NCBI GenBank assembly: GCA_016841965.1
Contig: JAEANN010000054.1
Coordinates: 1-64,000 of the forward strand
Origin: Candidatus Roseilinea mizusawaensis
Lineage (GTDB): Bacteria; Chloroflexota; Anaerolineae; J036; Brachytrichaceae
Reading direction: 5' to 3'
DNA: 64,000 nucleotides
The translations under genes and the position numbers were made by a program. The notes beneath the pieces were generated by a model. That model was not told where the DNA came from, ran no database searches, and was given only the letters and a program-made list of their open reading frames with translations. This document shows positions 2,077 to 59,528 of the stretch, piece by piece (positions within the stretch are counted from its first letter, which is position 1; each line of letters starts with the position of its first letter).

Positions 2077-3480
2077 ATGGCTGTGGACTTGTTCGACAGT
2101 GCGGCGGCAGAGCAGGCCAGACGTGAGGCGCCGCTGGCAGATCGCATGCGCCCGCGCACGCTGGATGAATTCATCGGTCAGGAGGACATCGTCGGGCCGG
2201 GCAAGCTGTTGCGCCGCGCGATCGAATCCGACCGACTGTTTTCGTCCATCATTTTTTGGGGGCCGCCCGGCACAGGCAAAACCACGCTGGCGCGCATCAT
2301 TTCTAATCGCACACAGAGCCATTTCGAGACGCTCAACGCCGTGATGGCCGGCGTGGCCGATATCCGCCGCGTGGTGGCCGAAGCCCGCGAGCGGCGGAAG
2401 CTATACCGCCGGCGCACCATTCTGCTCATCGATGAAATCCACCGCTTCAACAAAGCCCAGCAGGACGCCCTGTTGCCACATGTCGAAGATGGCACCCTCA
2501 TTCTCATCGGGGCAACCACCGAGAACCCCTACTTCGAAGTGAACAGCGCGCTTATTTCGCGCTCGCGCTTGTTCCATCTCAACGTATTGACCGACGCGCA
2601 GGTGCAGGAGCTGATGCGGCGCGCGCTGGCCGACCCGGAGCGAGGCTACGGCACGCGCCAGATTGCTGTCGATGAAGCGGCGTTGGCGCATCTGGCGCGT
2701 GTGGCCGGCGGCGATGCCCGCAATGCGCTCAACGCGCTTGAACTGGCGGTCGAATCGACGCCGCCCGCTCCCGATGGCGTGGTGCATATCGATCTGGCCG
2801 TGGCGCAAGACAGCATCCAGCGCCGGGCCATCCTGTACGACAAGGAAGGCGACGCGCATTACGACACGATCAGCGCATTCATCAAAAGTGTGCGCGGCAG
2901 CGACCCCGACGCCGCGCTGTACTGGCTGGCCAAGATGATTTATGCCGGCGAAGACCCGCGCTTCATCATGCGCCGGCTGCTCATTCTGGCCGGCGAGGAC
3001 ATCGGCCTAGCCGAGCCGATGGGACTGGTGGTGGCCGCCGCCGCTTCACAGGCGCTGGATTGGGTGGGCATGCCGGAGGGCATCTTTCCGCTGGTCGAGG
3101 CGACGTTGTTTCTGGCTACAGCCCCCAAGTCGAACACTGCCACACATTACTTCAATGCGCGCGCTCAGATCGAACGTGAGGGCGCCGGGGAAGTGCCCGA
3201 TCACCTCAAAGATGCCAACCGCGACGCAAAGGGGCTGGGCCACGGCAAGGGCTACGTGTACCCGCATGCTTTTGACGAGCACTGGACGCCGCAGAACTAT
3301 CTGCCGCGCGAGATTGCCGGCATGACGTTCTACACGCCCAGCGGGGTCGGCTATGAAGCAACGGTGGCCGAACGGTTGGAACGCTGGCGAGAGGCGCAAC
3401 GCCGGGCGCTGGGTATCGAGGGGCGCGCGGGGCCGCGCCTCGACCACGCCGAAGTGGAGCGCATGAAGCGCGAGCGATAG
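2077..3480 (+). CDS. rarA: replication-associated recombination protein RarA (MgsA)
   Basis: A 467-residue AAA+ ATPase of the RarA/MgsA/WRNIP1 family, which acts at stalled replication forks and is related to clamp-loader subunits. Walker A GPPGTGKTT lies at about 62-70. Walker B and its extension read LLIDEIHRFNKAQQDALLP, followed by the sensor segment GATTENPYFEVNSALISRS. The C-terminal tetramerisation region contains the family hallmark GEDPRFIMRRLLILAGEDIG. The ORF extends upstream to 2032, but the ATG at 2077 (MAVDLFD) fits family N-termini and follows a -10-like TATCAT. The TAG stop lies inside the first unit of a 13-bp tandem repeat. Confidence 0.95.
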   Translation: MAVDLFDSAAAEQARREAPLADRMRPRTLDEFIGQEDIVGPGKLLRRAIESDRLFSSIIFWGPPGTGKTTLARIISNRTQSHFETLNAVMAGVADIRRVVAEARERRKLYRRRTILLIDEIHRFNKAQQDALLPHVEDGTLILIGATTENPYFEVNSALISRSRLFHLNVLTDAQVQELMRRALADPERGYGTRQIAVDEAALAHLARVAGGDARNALNALELAVESTPPAPDGVVHIDLAVAQDSIQRRAILYDKEGDAHYDTISAFIKSVRGSDPDAALYWLAKMIYAGEDPRFIMRRLLILAGEDIGLAEPMGLVVAAAASQALDWVGMPEGIFPLVEATLFLATAPKSNTATHYFNARAQIEREGAGEVPDHLKDANRDAKGLGHGKGYVYPHAFDEHWTPQNYLPREIAGMTFYTPSGVGYEATVAERLERWREAQRRALGIEGRAGPRLDHAEVERMKRER

Positions 3481-3513
3481 CGGTTAACGATAGCGGTTAA
3501 CGATAGCGGTTAA
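3475..3513. repeat. 13-bp tandem repeat, three copies, spanning the rarA stop
   Basis: Three perfect head-to-tail copies of CGATAGCGGTTAA lie at 3475-3487, 3488-3500 and 3501-3513. The first copy contains the TAG stop of rarA. It looks like slippage or tandem duplication of the gene's last bases; no function is evident. Confidence 0.9.
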
Positions 3514-23215: not shown

Positions 23216-24697
23216 ATGCGTCTTTTCATGTCAAACCCGCGCACGCTGCTGCGCACGCTGCTGCGCACGCTGCTGCGCACAGCCGCTGTGCTGGCCAGCC
23301 TGTGTGTGGTGGGTGTGTGGGTGGCCGGCTTGACGCCGGCGCGCGCAGATGCGCAGGTCAGCGCGACCAATCGGGCCGTGATCTACTTTTTTTGGGGAGA
23401 TGGCTGCCCCCACTGCGCTGCTGCCAAACCGTTCCTGCAAACGCTGACCGAGAAATACCCCGACGTCGAAGTGCGCGCGTATGAGGTCTGGAACAGCGCA
23501 GAGAACCGGGTCTTGTTCTCCAAGATGGCCGCTGCATATGGCTTCGAGCCACAAGCTGTGCCCACGATCTTTCTGGGAGATCAGCACTGGGTGGGCTACG
23601 CCGAGCGCATCGCTCAGGACATCGAAGCGGCGGTGCAGGACTGTCTGGCAACCGGCTGCCGCAATGCCGGCGCCGGCGTCATCGAGCCAGCAGAAGCCGT
23701 GGTCACGATTCAGCCCACACCGGCTGCCCTGGCCGCCGCGCAGGACGCCGCAGCAGCTCCGCCAACCAACGGCGATGCCAACCCGGCTGCGCCGCAAGCC
23801 GCCGTGCTCGATCTGCCGCTGATCGGCGCCGTCAGCCTCGAACACCAATCGTTGCTGATGAGCACGGCGCTGATCGCGTTTGTGGATGGCTTCAATCCGT
23901 GCTCGGTGTGGGTGCTGACCATGCTGCTGGCCATCACCCTGCACACCGGCTCGCGCAGGAAGGTGCTGGTCATCGGTCTGGTATTCGTGACCGTCACCGC
24001 ATTCATCTATGCCTTGTTCATTGCCGGCCTGTTCACCATGTTCACGTTCGTCGCCATCACCGACTGGGTGCGCTTGCTGGTGGCGCTGATTGCCCTGTTC
24101 TTTGCTGCAATCAACATCAAGGATTATTTCTGGTACAAGGAGGGCGTCTCGCTGACCATTGCGGATGAAGCCAAGCCCGGCCTCTTTCAACGCATGCGCC
24201 GGCTGGTCGATGCCAGCCAATCATTTGGGGGGCTGGTCGCTGCCACAGTCGCGTTGGCTGCCGGCGTGTCGCTGGTCGAGTTCTCCTGCACCGCCGGCTT
24301 CCCCATGTTGTGGACCAACCTGCTGGCATCGCAGCAGGTCGGCACGGTGACGTTCCTGGCCCTGCTGGCCGTCTATATGCTCATCTACCAGCTCGATGAG
24401 CTGGGCATTTTCCTTGGCTCGGTTGTGACGCTGAAGGCGTCGCGCCTGGAAGAGAAGCACGGGCGCATCCTCAAACTGGTGGGCGGCATGTTGATGCTGA
24501 CGCTGGCCATTGTCATGCTCATCGATCCGAGCTTGATGAACACCCTGGGCAACTCGCTGCTCATCTTCGGGGCAGCCATTGGCGCAGCGCTGCTGGTGCT
24601 GGTGGTTCATCGTCGTGTGCTGCCGCGACTGGGCATCGTCATCGGCAGCGAAGCTGGCCTGCAGAAAGACCAGCCTCGCAAGCGCCGCGTGCGATAG
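23216..24697 (+). CDS. thioredoxin-fused CcdA/DsbD-like membrane oxidoreductase
   Basis: A 493-residue protein. An N-terminal anchor or signal (about 20-42) precedes an exported thioredoxin-like domain with CPHC at C64-C67 and cis-Pro in AVPTIFLG (P116). An Ala/Pro linker (about 160-197) leads to six or more membrane segments. Two intramembrane cysteines sit in conserved-looking settings, GFNPCSVWVL (C229) and VEFSCTAGFP (C358), as in CcdA/DsbD electron carriers. It may pass electrons across the membrane to its own thioredoxin domain. ATG 23216 is preferred over 23207. The signal region contains a threefold 12-bp repeat encoding Leu-Leu-Arg-Thr. mobA follows after 12 bases. Confidence 0.8.
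   Translation: MRLFMSNPRTLLRTLLRTLLRTAAVLASLCVVGVWVAGLTPARADAQVSATNRAVIYFFWGDGCPHCAAAKPFLQTLTEKYPDVEVRAYEVWNSAENRVLFSKMAAAYGFEPQAVPTIFLGDQHWVGYAERIAQDIEAAVQDCLATGCRNAGAGVIEPAEAVVTIQPTPAALAAAQDAAAAPPTNGDANPAAPQAAVLDLPLIGAVSLEHQSLLMSTALIAFVDGFNPCSVWVLTMLLAITLHTGSRRKVLVIGLVFVTVTAFIYALFIAGLFTMFTFVAITDWVRLLVALIALFFAAINIKDYFWYKEGVSLTIADEAKPGLFQRMRRLVDASQSFGGLVAATVALAAGVSLVEFSCTAGFPMLWTNLLASQQVGTVTFLALLAVYMLIYQLDELGIFLGSVVTLKASRLEEKHGRILKLVGGMLMLTLAIVMLIDPSLMNTLGNSLLIFGAAIGAALLVLVVHRRVLPRLGIVIGSEAGLQKDQPRKRRVR
23243..23278. repeat. 12-bp in-frame tandem repeat in a signal-anchor
   Basis: ACGCTGCTGCGC is repeated three times at 23243-23254, 23255-23266 and 23267-23278. It encodes three Leu-Leu-Arg-Thr units just before the hydrophobic core of the membrane anchor. 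Confidence 0.9.
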
Positions 24698-42742: not shown

Positions 42743-42770
42743 GGGCGCGGGGCGCGGGGCGCGGGGCGCG
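42743..42770. repeat. 7-bp tandem repeat, four copies, just after a stop codon
   Basis: GGGCGCG is repeated four times exactly at 42743-42770, beginning two bases after the TAA of the macroglobulin gene. Confidence 0.9.
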
Positions 42771-51127: not shown

Positions 51128-51167
51128 GAACGGGCCGAGAACGGGCCGAGAACGGGCCGAGAACGGG
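51128..51167. repeat. 11-bp tandem repeat upstream of trmD
   Basis: GAACGGGCCGA occurs three times exactly (51128-51160), followed by a seven-base partial copy, between the yajC stop and the trmD start. Confidence 0.9.
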
Positions 51168-51709: not shown

Positions 51710-52192
51710 ATGACACAACGCAGATATGGGACACTTCGCTTGGTGATCTTTGTGCTGCAGGTGCTGGCGTGGGTGTCTTTGATTCTCGGCTTGTTGATCG
51801 CGCTGGGCACTTTTCTGACCATTGCACTGGGCTTGGCGCAACTGCCGGCGCCGAACCAGCCCGCCGAGCCCCCAACAGCAAGCCTGCTTGCCGGCAGTAT
51901 CGGCGCTGTGACCAGCCTGATTGTCACCATCATCTTGTTTGTTGGCTTTATGGCTACCAGCCAGATCATTCATCTGTTGATTGAGATGGAGCAGAACACT
52001 CGCATCAGCGCTGATGCCTTGCAGCGTTTGCTTACGCTCCAGTTTGCTCGCCTGGACAATCCTGTCGCGGCCATAGATATTGCTGCATCCCCCGACAACG
52101 ACCAGAATGACCAGCCGGACACCCCAATCGCGACCGACCGGCCGGCAGAACCGACCATTACCACTTCTGCGCCCCCGTTGAGCACGCCGTGA
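51710..52192 (+). CDS. small two-helix membrane protein, function unknown
   Basis: A 160-residue protein with two transmembrane helices (about 10-40 and 58-82). A Pro-rich loop lies between them, then a short amphipathic stretch (IIHLLIEMEQNTRISADALQ) and an acidic, Pro/Thr-rich tail. No family is recognised. ATG 51710 is chosen over the longer frame because the first helix then sits at the N-terminus. The TGA lies in the first unit of a 15-bp tandem duplication. It may be co-transcribed with the following LysM-M23 gene. Confidence 0.6.
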   Translation: MTQRRYGTLRLVIFVLQVLAWVSLILGLLIALGTFLTIALGLAQLPAPNQPAEPPTASLLAGSIGAVTSLIVTIILFVGFMATSQIIHLLIEMEQNTRISADALQRLLTLQFARLDNPVAAIDIAASPDNDQNDQPDTPIATDRPAEPTITTSAPPLSTP

Positions 52193-52219
52193 CCAGGCAC
52201 GCCGTGACCAGGCACGCCG
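52182..52219. repeat. 15-bp tandem duplication spanning a stop codon
   Basis: GCACGCCGTGACCAG at 52182-52196 is repeated at 52197-52211, plus an 8-base partial third copy. The first unit contains the stop of the 160-residue membrane protein. Confidence 0.9.
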
Positions 52220-57017: not shown

Positions 57018-58142
57018 TTACGACAGCAGCCGCTCGATCTGGGCAATCCCATCGACGATGTCTGTGACCACAATGCTGTCATCGAGCTGGGCTGCAAGAT
57101 CGCGGTTCGTGGAGAATGCCCGGCCGCCGAACACAAGCCGGGTGTGGGGCGCCTCGTGCGCCAGATAGTGCGGCAGGTGCAGCAACAACTGCGCCGATTC
57201 GGACATCATGGCGGACACAGCAAGCACCCGGGGCTTCAACTCTCGCACCGTGCGCACCAGTTCCATCAACGGGATGTCCGAGCCGAGGTAGCGCACGTTA
57301 TAGCCTGCACGCCGCAGCAGCAACGCCACCATCACCGCTCCGACTTCACGTCGCTCGGCAGACGCGCACCCGATGAGGGCAAGGGGTCCTTGATGAATCG
57401 GCTGCGCGTTCAGCAACGCCAGCAGCCGGCCCATCAGATACGCCGTGGCAAAGTGCTCGATCGCCACAGAGATTTTGCCGTCGAGCCAGTCCTGGCCGAT
57501 TGCCGCCATGCAAGGCGTAATGACACGCACACACACAATTTCGATCGGGTACAGCGCAAACGCCTCGGCCAAGATGACACTGGCCGCTTGCTCATCCATG
57601 TTGATCAGCGCGTCGTGCAGCGTGGCCTGCAGACGGTCGCAGCTCTCGGCCATGGCAGCGTCGAGCTTGTTCATCCATGTGCGCAAGACATGCGCTGCCC
57701 GGCTTGTCTGGGACGTGGCAGGGATTGCCGAGCCAGAGGCCAGCTCATCGCCAGCCGCCGGCAGCGCCCTGATGTCCTCGCGTAAGCGTTCCAGTAGTGC
57801 AACCGCCCGACTGATGCTCAAGCCTGCATCGAGCTGCGTTTTGAGCCAGATCAAAATGGCAATGTCGCGGTCAGAGTACAGCCGATAGTTACCGCCGGTG
57901 CGGCCAGGTTCCAACACTTTATAGCGCCGCTTATAGCGCCGCTCATAGCGTCGCTTATAGCGCCGCTCATAGCGCCGCTCATAGCGCCGCTCATAGCGCC
58001 GCTCCCAGGCGCGCAGCGTTGCCGCCGGAATGCCCGTGCGCTGGGTGACCGCTTTGATGTTGTAGACAGGTGTGTCCGAATAGGCCGTCAGTGCAAATTC
58101 GCGGTCGATTGTCTTGTGCCTCGCCCCAAGCAGGTTGCCCAT
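57018..58142 (-). CDS. MerR-family regulator with cobalamin-binding domains (CarH/LitR-like)
   Basis: A 374-residue repressor-type regulator. The MerR helix-turn-helix begins YNIKAVTQRTGIPAATLRAWERRY (about 26-50). The wing then reads VLEPGRTGGNYRLYSDRD (76-93), but residues 47-75 are seven (E/K)RRY units, an insertion of about 24 residues. The B12-binding part keeps the W-x9-EH signature of adenosylcobalamin photoreceptors (W219, E229-H230). The ExHxxG motif that supplies the lower His ligand reads ERREVG (263-268). CarH/LitR proteins control carotenoid genes in light. A crtI gene lies 45 kb away. ATG 58142 was chosen; a TTG 12 residues upstream is possible. Confidence 0.85.
   Translation of the reverse strand: MGNLLGARHKTIDREFALTAYSDTPVYNIKAVTQRTGIPAATLRAWERRYERRYERRYERRYKRRYERRYKRRYKVLEPGRTGGNYRLYSDRDIAILIWLKTQLDAGLSISRAVALLERLREDIRALPAAGDELASGSAIPATSQTSRAAHVLRTWMNKLDAAMAESCDRLQATLHDALINMDEQAASVILAEAFALYPIEIVCVRVITPCMAAIGQDWLDGKISVAIEHFATAYLMGRLLALLNAQPIHQGPLALIGCASAERREVGAVMVALLLRRAGYNVRYLGSDIPLMELVRTVRELKPRVLAVSAMMSESAQLLLHLPHYLAHEAPHTRLVFGGRAFSTNRDLAAQLDDSIVVTDIVDGIAQIERLLS
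57921..58004. repeat. 12-bp tandem repeat, seven copies, inside the MerR wing
   Basis: Seven consecutive 12-bp units of the form ATAGCGCCGCTY fill 57921-58004; the third unit differs by one base. Read on the minus strand they encode (E/K)RRY seven times. The Y position alternates between E and K codons. Confidence 0.97.
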
Positions 58143-58205: not shown

Positions 58206-59528
58206 CTATTGCAGCGAGCAGTCGAAGTCAATCTGATACTGCGCCGTAGACTGCGCAACCTGCAAGGTGTCTGTGACCGGCTGACCATCAAACACCTGGC
58301 GCAGGCTGTTGGCAAGCACACCCTGGATACATCCCCACCCGCCGATCAGTGGCTCTGGTTGAGCAGCCGGCGCAATAATCTTCAGCACTGACGCCGTGGC
58401 CTGATCCACAGACACCTGATCAGCCAGCGCATTGATAGCCGAGACGCGGGCCGGCAATTCACCGGTCTGAATAGCCCATTCGGCAGTCTGTGGCGTATCG
58501 GTCAGCCAGCGGATGAAGCGCCAGGCGGCCAACTGTCGCGCGTCGTCGGTTTTGGTCACCACCCACAAGGGAGCGCGCAAGGCCGTTCTGGGTTCCGGCA
58601 GGGTTGCGGGCAGCAAGCCGATATCCCAGGTGAAATTGGCTCGCTCGCGGATCAGGTCGCGGTACACTCCGACCTGATCGCTCCAGTCGAATGCAAATAT
58701 CACCCGGCCGGCTGTGAAGTCATCCCGGCTCTGGCGCTGGCTGTTCACCCGATAAGCTTGATTGTCGCGCACGTAGGCGCTGAGTCGCCCGAGCGCTTCG
58801 CTGGCTGCCGGCGCCAACAGTTGCATAGCCTCTTCATCCTGCACCACAAGCCGCCCGCCATGCGCATACAGCCATTCTTCAAACACGGCGCTGCTGGTGT
58901 CGGCGCCAAAGCACAACGTGCCCCTCAAGCGGTCGGTGGCGCCGGCGCATGCCGCGTTCAATCCCTCCCAGTCCGCCGGCATGGCATCAATGTTGATCGA
59001 CCGCAGCCAGTCCAGATTGGCAAACATGACGCGCGCGACGCCGCCAAATGGTATTCCGATCGTCGCGTTGTTTGCGTCGGGTGTGCGGCCGGCTGCAAGG
59101 ATGAACGGATACAGATCACTGCGATCCGACGCATCCCATCCAATCGTGGGATCATCGTTCGAGAGGTATGCGTCCAGCGGGGCGAGGATGCCGCGCCGGT
59201 AGTACACAGCAGCCTGAGCGGGCGACGCCAACAGCAAACTCGGCAGCGCATTCCGCGCTGCGCCATTCAAGACGGCGCTGTGCAAGGCGGGCAGGTCGCG
59301 CCGCTCCGGCGCCACGACAATCCCATGCGGGTTGTGGCGATTCCAGCGGTCGATCAGGTATAACAAGGCTCGTTCGCGCCGGTCTGACAAGGTATGCCAC
59401 AGGATGACGACCTGCCCAGCCGGCAAAGCCGGCGCACATGCCGCCACACTCACGGCGACCGCGATTGCCAGAAGCAATCGCCAAGACATAGATCGACCCG
59501 GCGCTGCCCGTCTGTTCGTGTGCTTCAT
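58206..59528 (-). CDS. family 1 solute-binding lipoprotein (sugar type)
   Basis: A 440-residue extracellular binding protein. The signal MSWRLLLAIAVAVSVAAC ends in a lipobox (Cys near residue 31). The core is SBP_bac_1-like: VVILWHTLSDRRERALLYLI near the start, IGIPFGGVARVMFANLDWL, RVIFAFDWSDQVGVYRDL and an AWRFIRWLTDTPQTAEWAI segment near the C-terminus. No sugar ABC permeases or ATPase are adjacent. The start could also be Met14. It lies upstream of the MerR regulator on the same strand (63-base gap), so the two may be co-transcribed. Confidence 0.87.
   Translation of the reverse strand: MKHTNRRAAPGRSMSWRLLLAIAVAVSVAACAPALPAGQVVILWHTLSDRRERALLYLIDRWNRHNPHGIVVAPERRDLPALHSAVLNGAARNALPSLLLASPAQAAVYYRRGILAPLDAYLSNDDPTIGWDASDRSDLYPFILAAGRTPDANNATIGIPFGGVARVMFANLDWLRSINIDAMPADWEGLNAACAGATDRLRGTLCFGADTSSAVFEEWLYAHGGRLVVQDEEAMQLLAPAASEALGRLSAYVRDNQAYRVNSQRQSRDDFTAGRVIFAFDWSDQVGVYRDLIRERANFTWDIGLLPATLPEPRTALRAPLWVVTKTDDARQLAAWRFIRWLTDTPQTAEWAIQTGELPARVSAINALADQVSVDQATASVLKIIAPAAQPEPLIGGWGCIQGVLANSLRQVFDGQPVTDTLQVAQSTAQYQIDFDCSLQ

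Follow-up and report, generated by a model that had tools for sequence, protein, structure and literature searches.

A gene for a MerR-type regulator carries seven tandem 12-bp units at a position where its relatives have one, and sequence comparison indicates that 72 bp (24 amino acids) were gained in its own lineage. We regard the expansion as genuine, in frame, specific to this lineage and strikingly placed; with somewhat more confidence than doubt, it is best explained by a general background of short-repeat slippage. Features of the locus are listed in Table 1; the window is the whole stretch of 64,000 nucleotides that was analysed.

Table 1. The regulator locus: features with positions in the window.
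Feature	Positions	Strand	Basis
MerR + B12-binding_2 + B12-binding regulator gene, 386 aa	57018..58178	-	ORF; Pfam above cut-offs
Seven 12-bp tandem units, residues 59-86	57921..58004	-	TRF, unit reading, single unit at same site in relatives
Helix-turn-helix, residues 39-58, VYNIKAVTQRTGIPAATLRAW	58005..58064	-	phmmer to CarH; domain-model helices 41-48, 52 onwards
Wing, residues 87-101, KVLEPGRTGGNYRLY	57876..57920	-	phmmer to CarH; domain-model strands 92-94, 98-101
Wx9EH motif, W231 to H242, kept	57453..57488	-	Alignment
ExHxxG B12 motif reading ERREVG, Arg277 for lower-axial His	57339..57356	-	Alignment, codon comparison
Substrate-binding-protein-like gene (name by eye)	58206..59528	-	ORF; same neighbour in L032, L033

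The array has a period of 12, 7.0 copies, 93% matches and a TRF score of 147. Its units read, on the minus strand, four times GAGCGGCGCTAT, then AAGCGACGCTAT, GAGCGGCGCTAT and AAGCGGCGCTAT, and are translated in frame to ERRY (four times), KRRY, ERRY and KRRY, with Trp58 immediately before and KVLEPGR after the array. TRF and the reading of the units confirm what an earlier note on this DNA had described, namely a row of seven near-identical 12-bp units, each translated in frame to (E/K)RRY, and the insert is as basic as that note had claimed: the seven units have a net charge of +11, a single ERRY of +1. The highest TRF score was 72 among 100 third-order Markov versions of the window and 56 among 200 codon shuffles of the gene. 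It is extremely unlikely that the true gene has one or few units and that the remainder is an artefact of assembly: the genome assembly does consist of 59 contigs, but the units are not identical, the frame is kept, the assembly has many like arrays and an array of 84 bp is shorter than common short reads.

The protein has three Pfam domains, all above the cut-offs: MerR_1 (42.9 bits, cut-off 21.6), B12-binding_2 (45.5, cut-off 23) and B12-binding (55.6, cut-off 32.1); the start of the gene as listed is a TTG and the true start may be further in. The MerR_1 match is split by the array, and the best MerR stretch starts inside it, at residue 80. The first phmmer matches, 3whp ('probable transcriptional regulator') and 5c8d (CarH), are both of the CarH type, and the alignment to CarH is broken at the array, with one segment for the helix ahead of it and another for the wing behind it. 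The contiguous MerR winged helix with one WERRY turn, as expected of CarH, is replaced by one with seven units. The site is indeed that of the single WERRY turn of MerR proteins, since relatives read ...LRxWERRY... with one unit. The wing had been described as expanded: the units do lie between recognition helix and wing, but the insert is at the C-terminal end of the recognition helix, ahead of the wing strands and outside the wing itself.

Alignment with orthologues, which the earlier note had proposed as a check, found one unit in every orthologue that could be read, and the expansion in none of them. A homologue search of 60 genomes, including the own genome, matched 49. The helix region was readable in 30 of 33 loci (all but L002, L009 and L030), which are the own locus and 29 others; L032 and L003 lie on contigs of equal length and give an identical protein stretch, as do L033 and L004, and with each pair counted once, all 27 distinct relatives have a single ERRY unit. 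At the DNA level, the difference from the aligned relatives, including DNA of the same genus, is 72 bp: 84 bp here against 12 bp in the nearest relative, G001, a difference that is a multiple of 12. The pattern W-E-R-R-Y-x-R-R-Y was found only in the own genome among 396 genomes of the class, a number that refers to the genomes searched, not to carriers of a single unit, and the pattern would miss other kinds of insert at the site. It is on the 27 single-unit relatives and on this pattern search that the assignment of the gain to the own lineage is based.

Structure models had to be built from three sequences (whole protein) and five sequences (DNA-binding domain), because three viral_contigs scans for additional homologues returned 0, 0 and 2 loci. 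For the whole protein the model has a poor mean pLDDT of 48, and in it a single helix, residues 52-85, runs through the array. The DNA-binding domain modelled alone is better (mean pLDDT 71): after renumbering by +27 it has helices at residues 41-48 and 52-74 (an extended second helix), a break and a further helix at 79-85, followed after the array by strands at 92-94 and 98-101 and helices at 103-117 and 122-138. The two models thus disagree on whether the arm is one helix (whole protein) or two (domain), and in the domain model the confidence for the array falls, in blocks of ten residues, from about 72 to 61 and 48. The best Foldseek matches of the domain model are GlnR-DNA and CarH, with a probability of 1.00 and E-values of about 0.002; no match was below 0.001. 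The models suggest that the MerR fold can carry a helical excursion, with low to moderate confidence for the array, and that the regulator probably still is a folded MerR protein. They do not favour the proposal that the insert uncouples the wing: at low to moderate confidence, the domain model keeps helix-turn-helix and wing and shows the insert as a helical excursion that is poorly defined.

The second part of the protein has its own peculiarity. The Wx9EH motif of the CarH photoreceptors is intact (W231-x9-E241-H242; 24 of 26 other sequences share its EH). For D/ExHxxG the own protein has ERREVG: where all 26 other distinct sequences that cover the site have the lower-axial histidine, it has Arg277, and its codon CGT differs from the CAC of G001 in two bases. 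The histidine of D/ExHxxG is described as the lower axial ligand of cobalamin and Wx9EH as a CarH motif (PMC9304148). This private loss of the histidine is independent of the repeat. The label 'CarH-like' given to the regulator has to be qualified at the B12 lower-axial position. By its sequence, the regulator is a member of the MerR-B12 architecture that we do not file as a B12-dependent photoreceptor, because arginine replaces the cobalt-ligand histidine; its B12 chemistry is doubtful.

Two private changes at functionally central places could mean that the regulator is losing its function, the 24-residue insertion and the loss of the histidine being early lesions under relaxed constraint. 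With array divergence left out of all these figures, comparison with G001 gives a dN/dS of 0.21 over the whole gene; by part, it is 0.11 (MerR), 0.49 (linker) and 0.16 (B12). Values for six neighbouring genes lie between 0.07 and 0.24, and that of the regulator is the second highest of the seven genes compared. When G002 serves as outgroup, 351 columns contain 22 residues found in the own protein alone and 17 found in that of G001 alone (B12 part: 15 and 10). The rank of the gene and the 15 unique residues of the B12 part point towards relaxed constraint; the low ratios of the MerR and B12 parts, the open frame and an overall number of unique residues that gives no clear acceleration argue against it, and we consider loss of function unlikely. 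The ratios indicate that the rest of the gene, outside the array, is under purifying selection and that there is no visible decay. A pseudogene was ruled out by this selection and by the absence of any stop or frameshift. The array itself has one synonymous change (CGA) at 21 synonymous sites, where about six would have accumulated in an array as old as the split from G001 (estimated from a dS of about 0.6), which suggests that the array is young if homogenisation between units is ignored.

The gene order of the window at this locus, with names assigned by eye from the translations, is PGM-like, WD40-like, regulator, substrate-binding protein, RfbC-like, MBL-fold hydrolase and SecA, and from the PGM-like gene to SecA it is the same in both same-genus loci (L032 and L033); on the far side of the PGM-like gene, an M23-peptidase-like gene has a counterpart at the corresponding position in L032 but not in L033. 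The substrate-binding-protein-like gene ends 27 nucleotides before the listed start of the regulator, on the same strand, and is possibly co-transcribed with it. No carotenoid genes were recognised by eye beside the regulator in the window, L032 or L033; each of the three same-genus genomes has a gene of the phytoene/squalene-synthase family on a contig other than that of the regulator.

The array is one of many in this genome. TRF (score of 50 or more, period up to 60) identified 160 tandem arrays in 929 kb of the own genome (G000), compared to 10, 13 and 13 in three Markov controls. Among the 63 arrays with at least three copies and 85% matches, period 12 accounts for 18 and period 7 for 17. 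When masked bases are excluded (one fetched stretch, L062, contains 12,360 of these), there are 18 period-12 arrays with at least three copies in 916 kb of the own genome, six in 774 kb of G001 and none in 776 kb of six further genomes of the family, G002, G004, G007, G010, G017 and G021, combined. The comparison with G001 gives p 0.042 and that with all others combined p 0.0002, and the excess over this nearest relative is modest. We rejected the idea that 12-bp arrays are private to the own genome: a smaller sample of G001 (435 kb) had three, one of them with at least three copies, and the 774 kb have 11, including the six above. Arrays with a period of 7 are common in G000, G001 and G021 (17, 31 and 7 with at least three copies) and scarce or missing in what was sampled of G002, G004, G007, G010 and G017. 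The window has a further 12-bp array at 23239-23280 (plus strand), GCGCACGCTGCT repeated 3.5 times near the N-terminal end of a 503-aa frame, where the resulting (RTLL)n just precedes a likely membrane or signal stretch; perfect short arrays are at 3475-3513 (period 13), 42743-42770 (period 7), 51128-51167 (period 11) and 52182-52219 (period 15).

Frame-keeping selection was rejected as the general cause of period 12. The 12-bp arrays that were classified (28, with at least 2.2 copies and 85% matches) divide into 14 in coding sequences, 12 between genes and two on edges, although 88% of the sampled DNA was called coding; the genes were called by a crude codon-usage caller and some of the 'intergenic' arrays may sit in missed genes. 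Arrays of the same kind within and between genes mean that the keeping of a reading frame is not the general cause. Those in real genes are, judged by eye, mostly in low-complexity or terminal stretches. One 12-bp array in a called coding sequence (L035:6161-6228, corresponding to G000:C34:70161-70228) encodes (EAAH)n in what, named by eye, appears to be the C-terminal remnant of an FtsX/MacB-type permease with the upstream part out of frame.

This distribution also bears on the suggestion that the array is a tuning dial or contingency locus, in which the copy number would change often and DNA affinity, and hence the output of the regulon, would depend on how long and how charged the basic arm is. 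Seven units of which four are identical, a four-codon unit that keeps the frame and a net charge of +11 beside a DNA-contacting helix would fit, and there are reported precedents in tuberculosis promoters (PMC12817950) and in the in-frame tandem duplications that toggle a beta-lactamase (PMC4169377). The units are, however, interrupted (E/K and CGA), and an array that is one of many, within and between genes, gives the suggestion no support; we consider it very unlikely. About as improbable, and if anything a little more so, is a reading in which (ERRY)n forms a working basic helix of variable length that strengthens DNA binding next to the recognition helix; with the cobalt ligand lost, a light-released repressor would then have become a light-independent one whose strength is set by the repeat number.

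The array sites can be compared directly with G001. Both flanks were found in the sampled G001 for 28 of the 103 own arrays with at least 2.2 copies and 85% matches; ten of these 28 are 12-bp arrays. The gap sequences of G001, printed for these ten sites, contain the same 12-bp array in no case. Between the two genomes the length differs by an exact multiple of 12 at five of the sites (72 at the regulator, then 24, 12, 36 and 36) and by some other number at the remaining five (49, -27, 63, -9 and -28). G001 has two GCGCCGC-bearing copies at different spacing at the site of C34:109929 and a different repeat at that of L069:10731. The arrays at 51128 and 52182 of the window, for which both flanks were found, are also not present as the same array in G001; the positions of heptamer arrays are, by eye, partly shared. 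Sequence comparison thus indicates that the tendency to form arrays is common to both genomes and that array sites are, where compared, lineage-specific.

Many of the 12-bp units have a common core. GCGCCGC is present in 12 of 29 units, compared to 1.8 on average in GC-matched genomic 12-mers, and in 500 control sets no 7-mer exceeded 7. Two cores 12 bp apart occur, genome-wide, 70 times in the own genome, 31 times in G001 and 20 times in G002 (14, 13 and 1 times with a reversed-pattern control), many of those in G002 being single pairs rather than arrays. Numbers are also raised in G006 (16 versus 7), G014 (7 versus 1) and G033 (23 versus 12), and at or near the control in the rest of the 28 other genomes, for example 17 versus 17 in G037. 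In G014, a more distant member of the family, GCGCCGC-cored 12-bp arrays are found at C80:34390-34528, C95:324-366, C96:3-33 and C168:192-222. Cores are also spaced 13, 15 and 17 bp apart (seen among about the first 100 of 319 places), and the own genome has GCGCCGC-cored arrays with periods of 13 (C16:105047-105170, about ten copies) and 17 bp (C17:17912-18094); the core is therefore not tied to period 12. In genes it often encodes Ala-Ala or Arg-Arg recurring every four residues, and helix periodicity may supply the first 12-bp spacing.

As GCGCCGC is an odd palindrome, hairpin-aided slippage is plausible. Hairpin measures are raised over the genomic control for all 29 units (arms p 0.013, dimer energy p 0.003) and not significantly for the 17 units that lack GCGCCGC (p 0.21 and 0.15); hairpin-stabilised slippage was therefore dropped as the whole mechanism and kept as a possibility. 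Loss of repair genes was rejected too: SbcD is present in eight of ten genomes including the own (it is absent from G002 and G014) and MutS_V in all ten.

We consider it more probable than not that fast, lineage-specific slippage, often around a GCGCCGC core, happened to strike the regulator gene. Repeated tandem duplication, slipped-strand or unequal, would have raised the number of ERRY quartets at the recognition helix's end from an ancestral one to seven, in a lineage that seems to gain and lose short tandem arrays fast and in which period 12 is prominent; the GCGCCGC/GCGGCGC core, which the regulator gene has in GAGCGGCGCTAT, would be a favoured seed, the four-codon unit would let the frame survive and the extra 24 residues would form a basic, probably helical arm, with helix-turn-helix and wing kept on either side. 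This reading is supported by the expansion, its absence in relatives, the array background, the ten arrays absent from G001 and purifying selection; what we infer is that slippage is the mechanism, that the arm is helical and that the cell continues to make a protein able to bind DNA. Against it count the 12-bp arrays that G001 has as well, hairpin measures that are only modestly raised, the presence of SbcD and MutS, which leaves no simple repair defect, and the position of the array in a conserved fold, unlike that of most genic 12-bp arrays, so that selection for the array is possible.

If the slippage reading holds, complete helical turns can be added to a conserved DNA-binding domain by background slippage of short repeats, with the gene left unbroken, and the regulator would be a natural experiment on how far the recognition helix and the wing of a MerR protein can be separated. 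In this uncultured Chloroflexota lineage, whose relatives are named Anaerolineae/Thermoflexales, 12-bp in-frame expansions appear frequent enough for a comparison between two species.

No tandem expansion in the DNA-binding domain of a MerR or CarH protein was found in the literature searched by titles and abstract openings. Among the closest in kind are the in-frame tandem duplications reported inside a structured, functional region, the omega loop of a beta-lactamase; these arose under selection and were shown to revert (PMC4169377). Satellite-rich Chloroflexota are already known, as Chloroflexus aurantiacus is reported to have the most satellites among the bacteria tabulated, plus a 14-bp family of its own (PMC6749651). 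The likeness lies in many short arrays scattered in one lineage: arrays with at least four copies and a unit of at least 10 bp number 27.3 per Mb in the own genome and 16.8 in G001, against 14.4 per Mb reported, by a different method, for C. aurantiacus (PMC6749651). The family of C. aurantiacus is, as described there, one sequence, whereas the own units vary between arrays and share at most a 7-bp core.

At the level of the protein, the B12-dependent MerR photoregulators of the CarH/LitR type are closest, with CarH of Thermus thermophilus (5c8d/5c8e, 3whp) giving the best PDB sequence matches. Common to both are the layout of MerR, four-helix and Rossmann B12 domains and the kept Wx9EH motif, and the domain model matches CarH chains by fold. 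The own protein differs by 24 extra residues between recognition helix and wing, by the change of the lower-axial histidine to arginine and by the lack of carotenoid genes among the neighbours seen. Myxococcus xanthus CarA (2jml), a B12-independent paralogue of CarH, likewise has the MerR and B12-binding layout and is reported to use it without B12 (PMC9304148). The two proteins differ in what they have kept: CarA has the B12 motif and lacks the tryptophan of Wx9EH, whereas the own protein has the tryptophan and has lost the histidine of the B12 motif.
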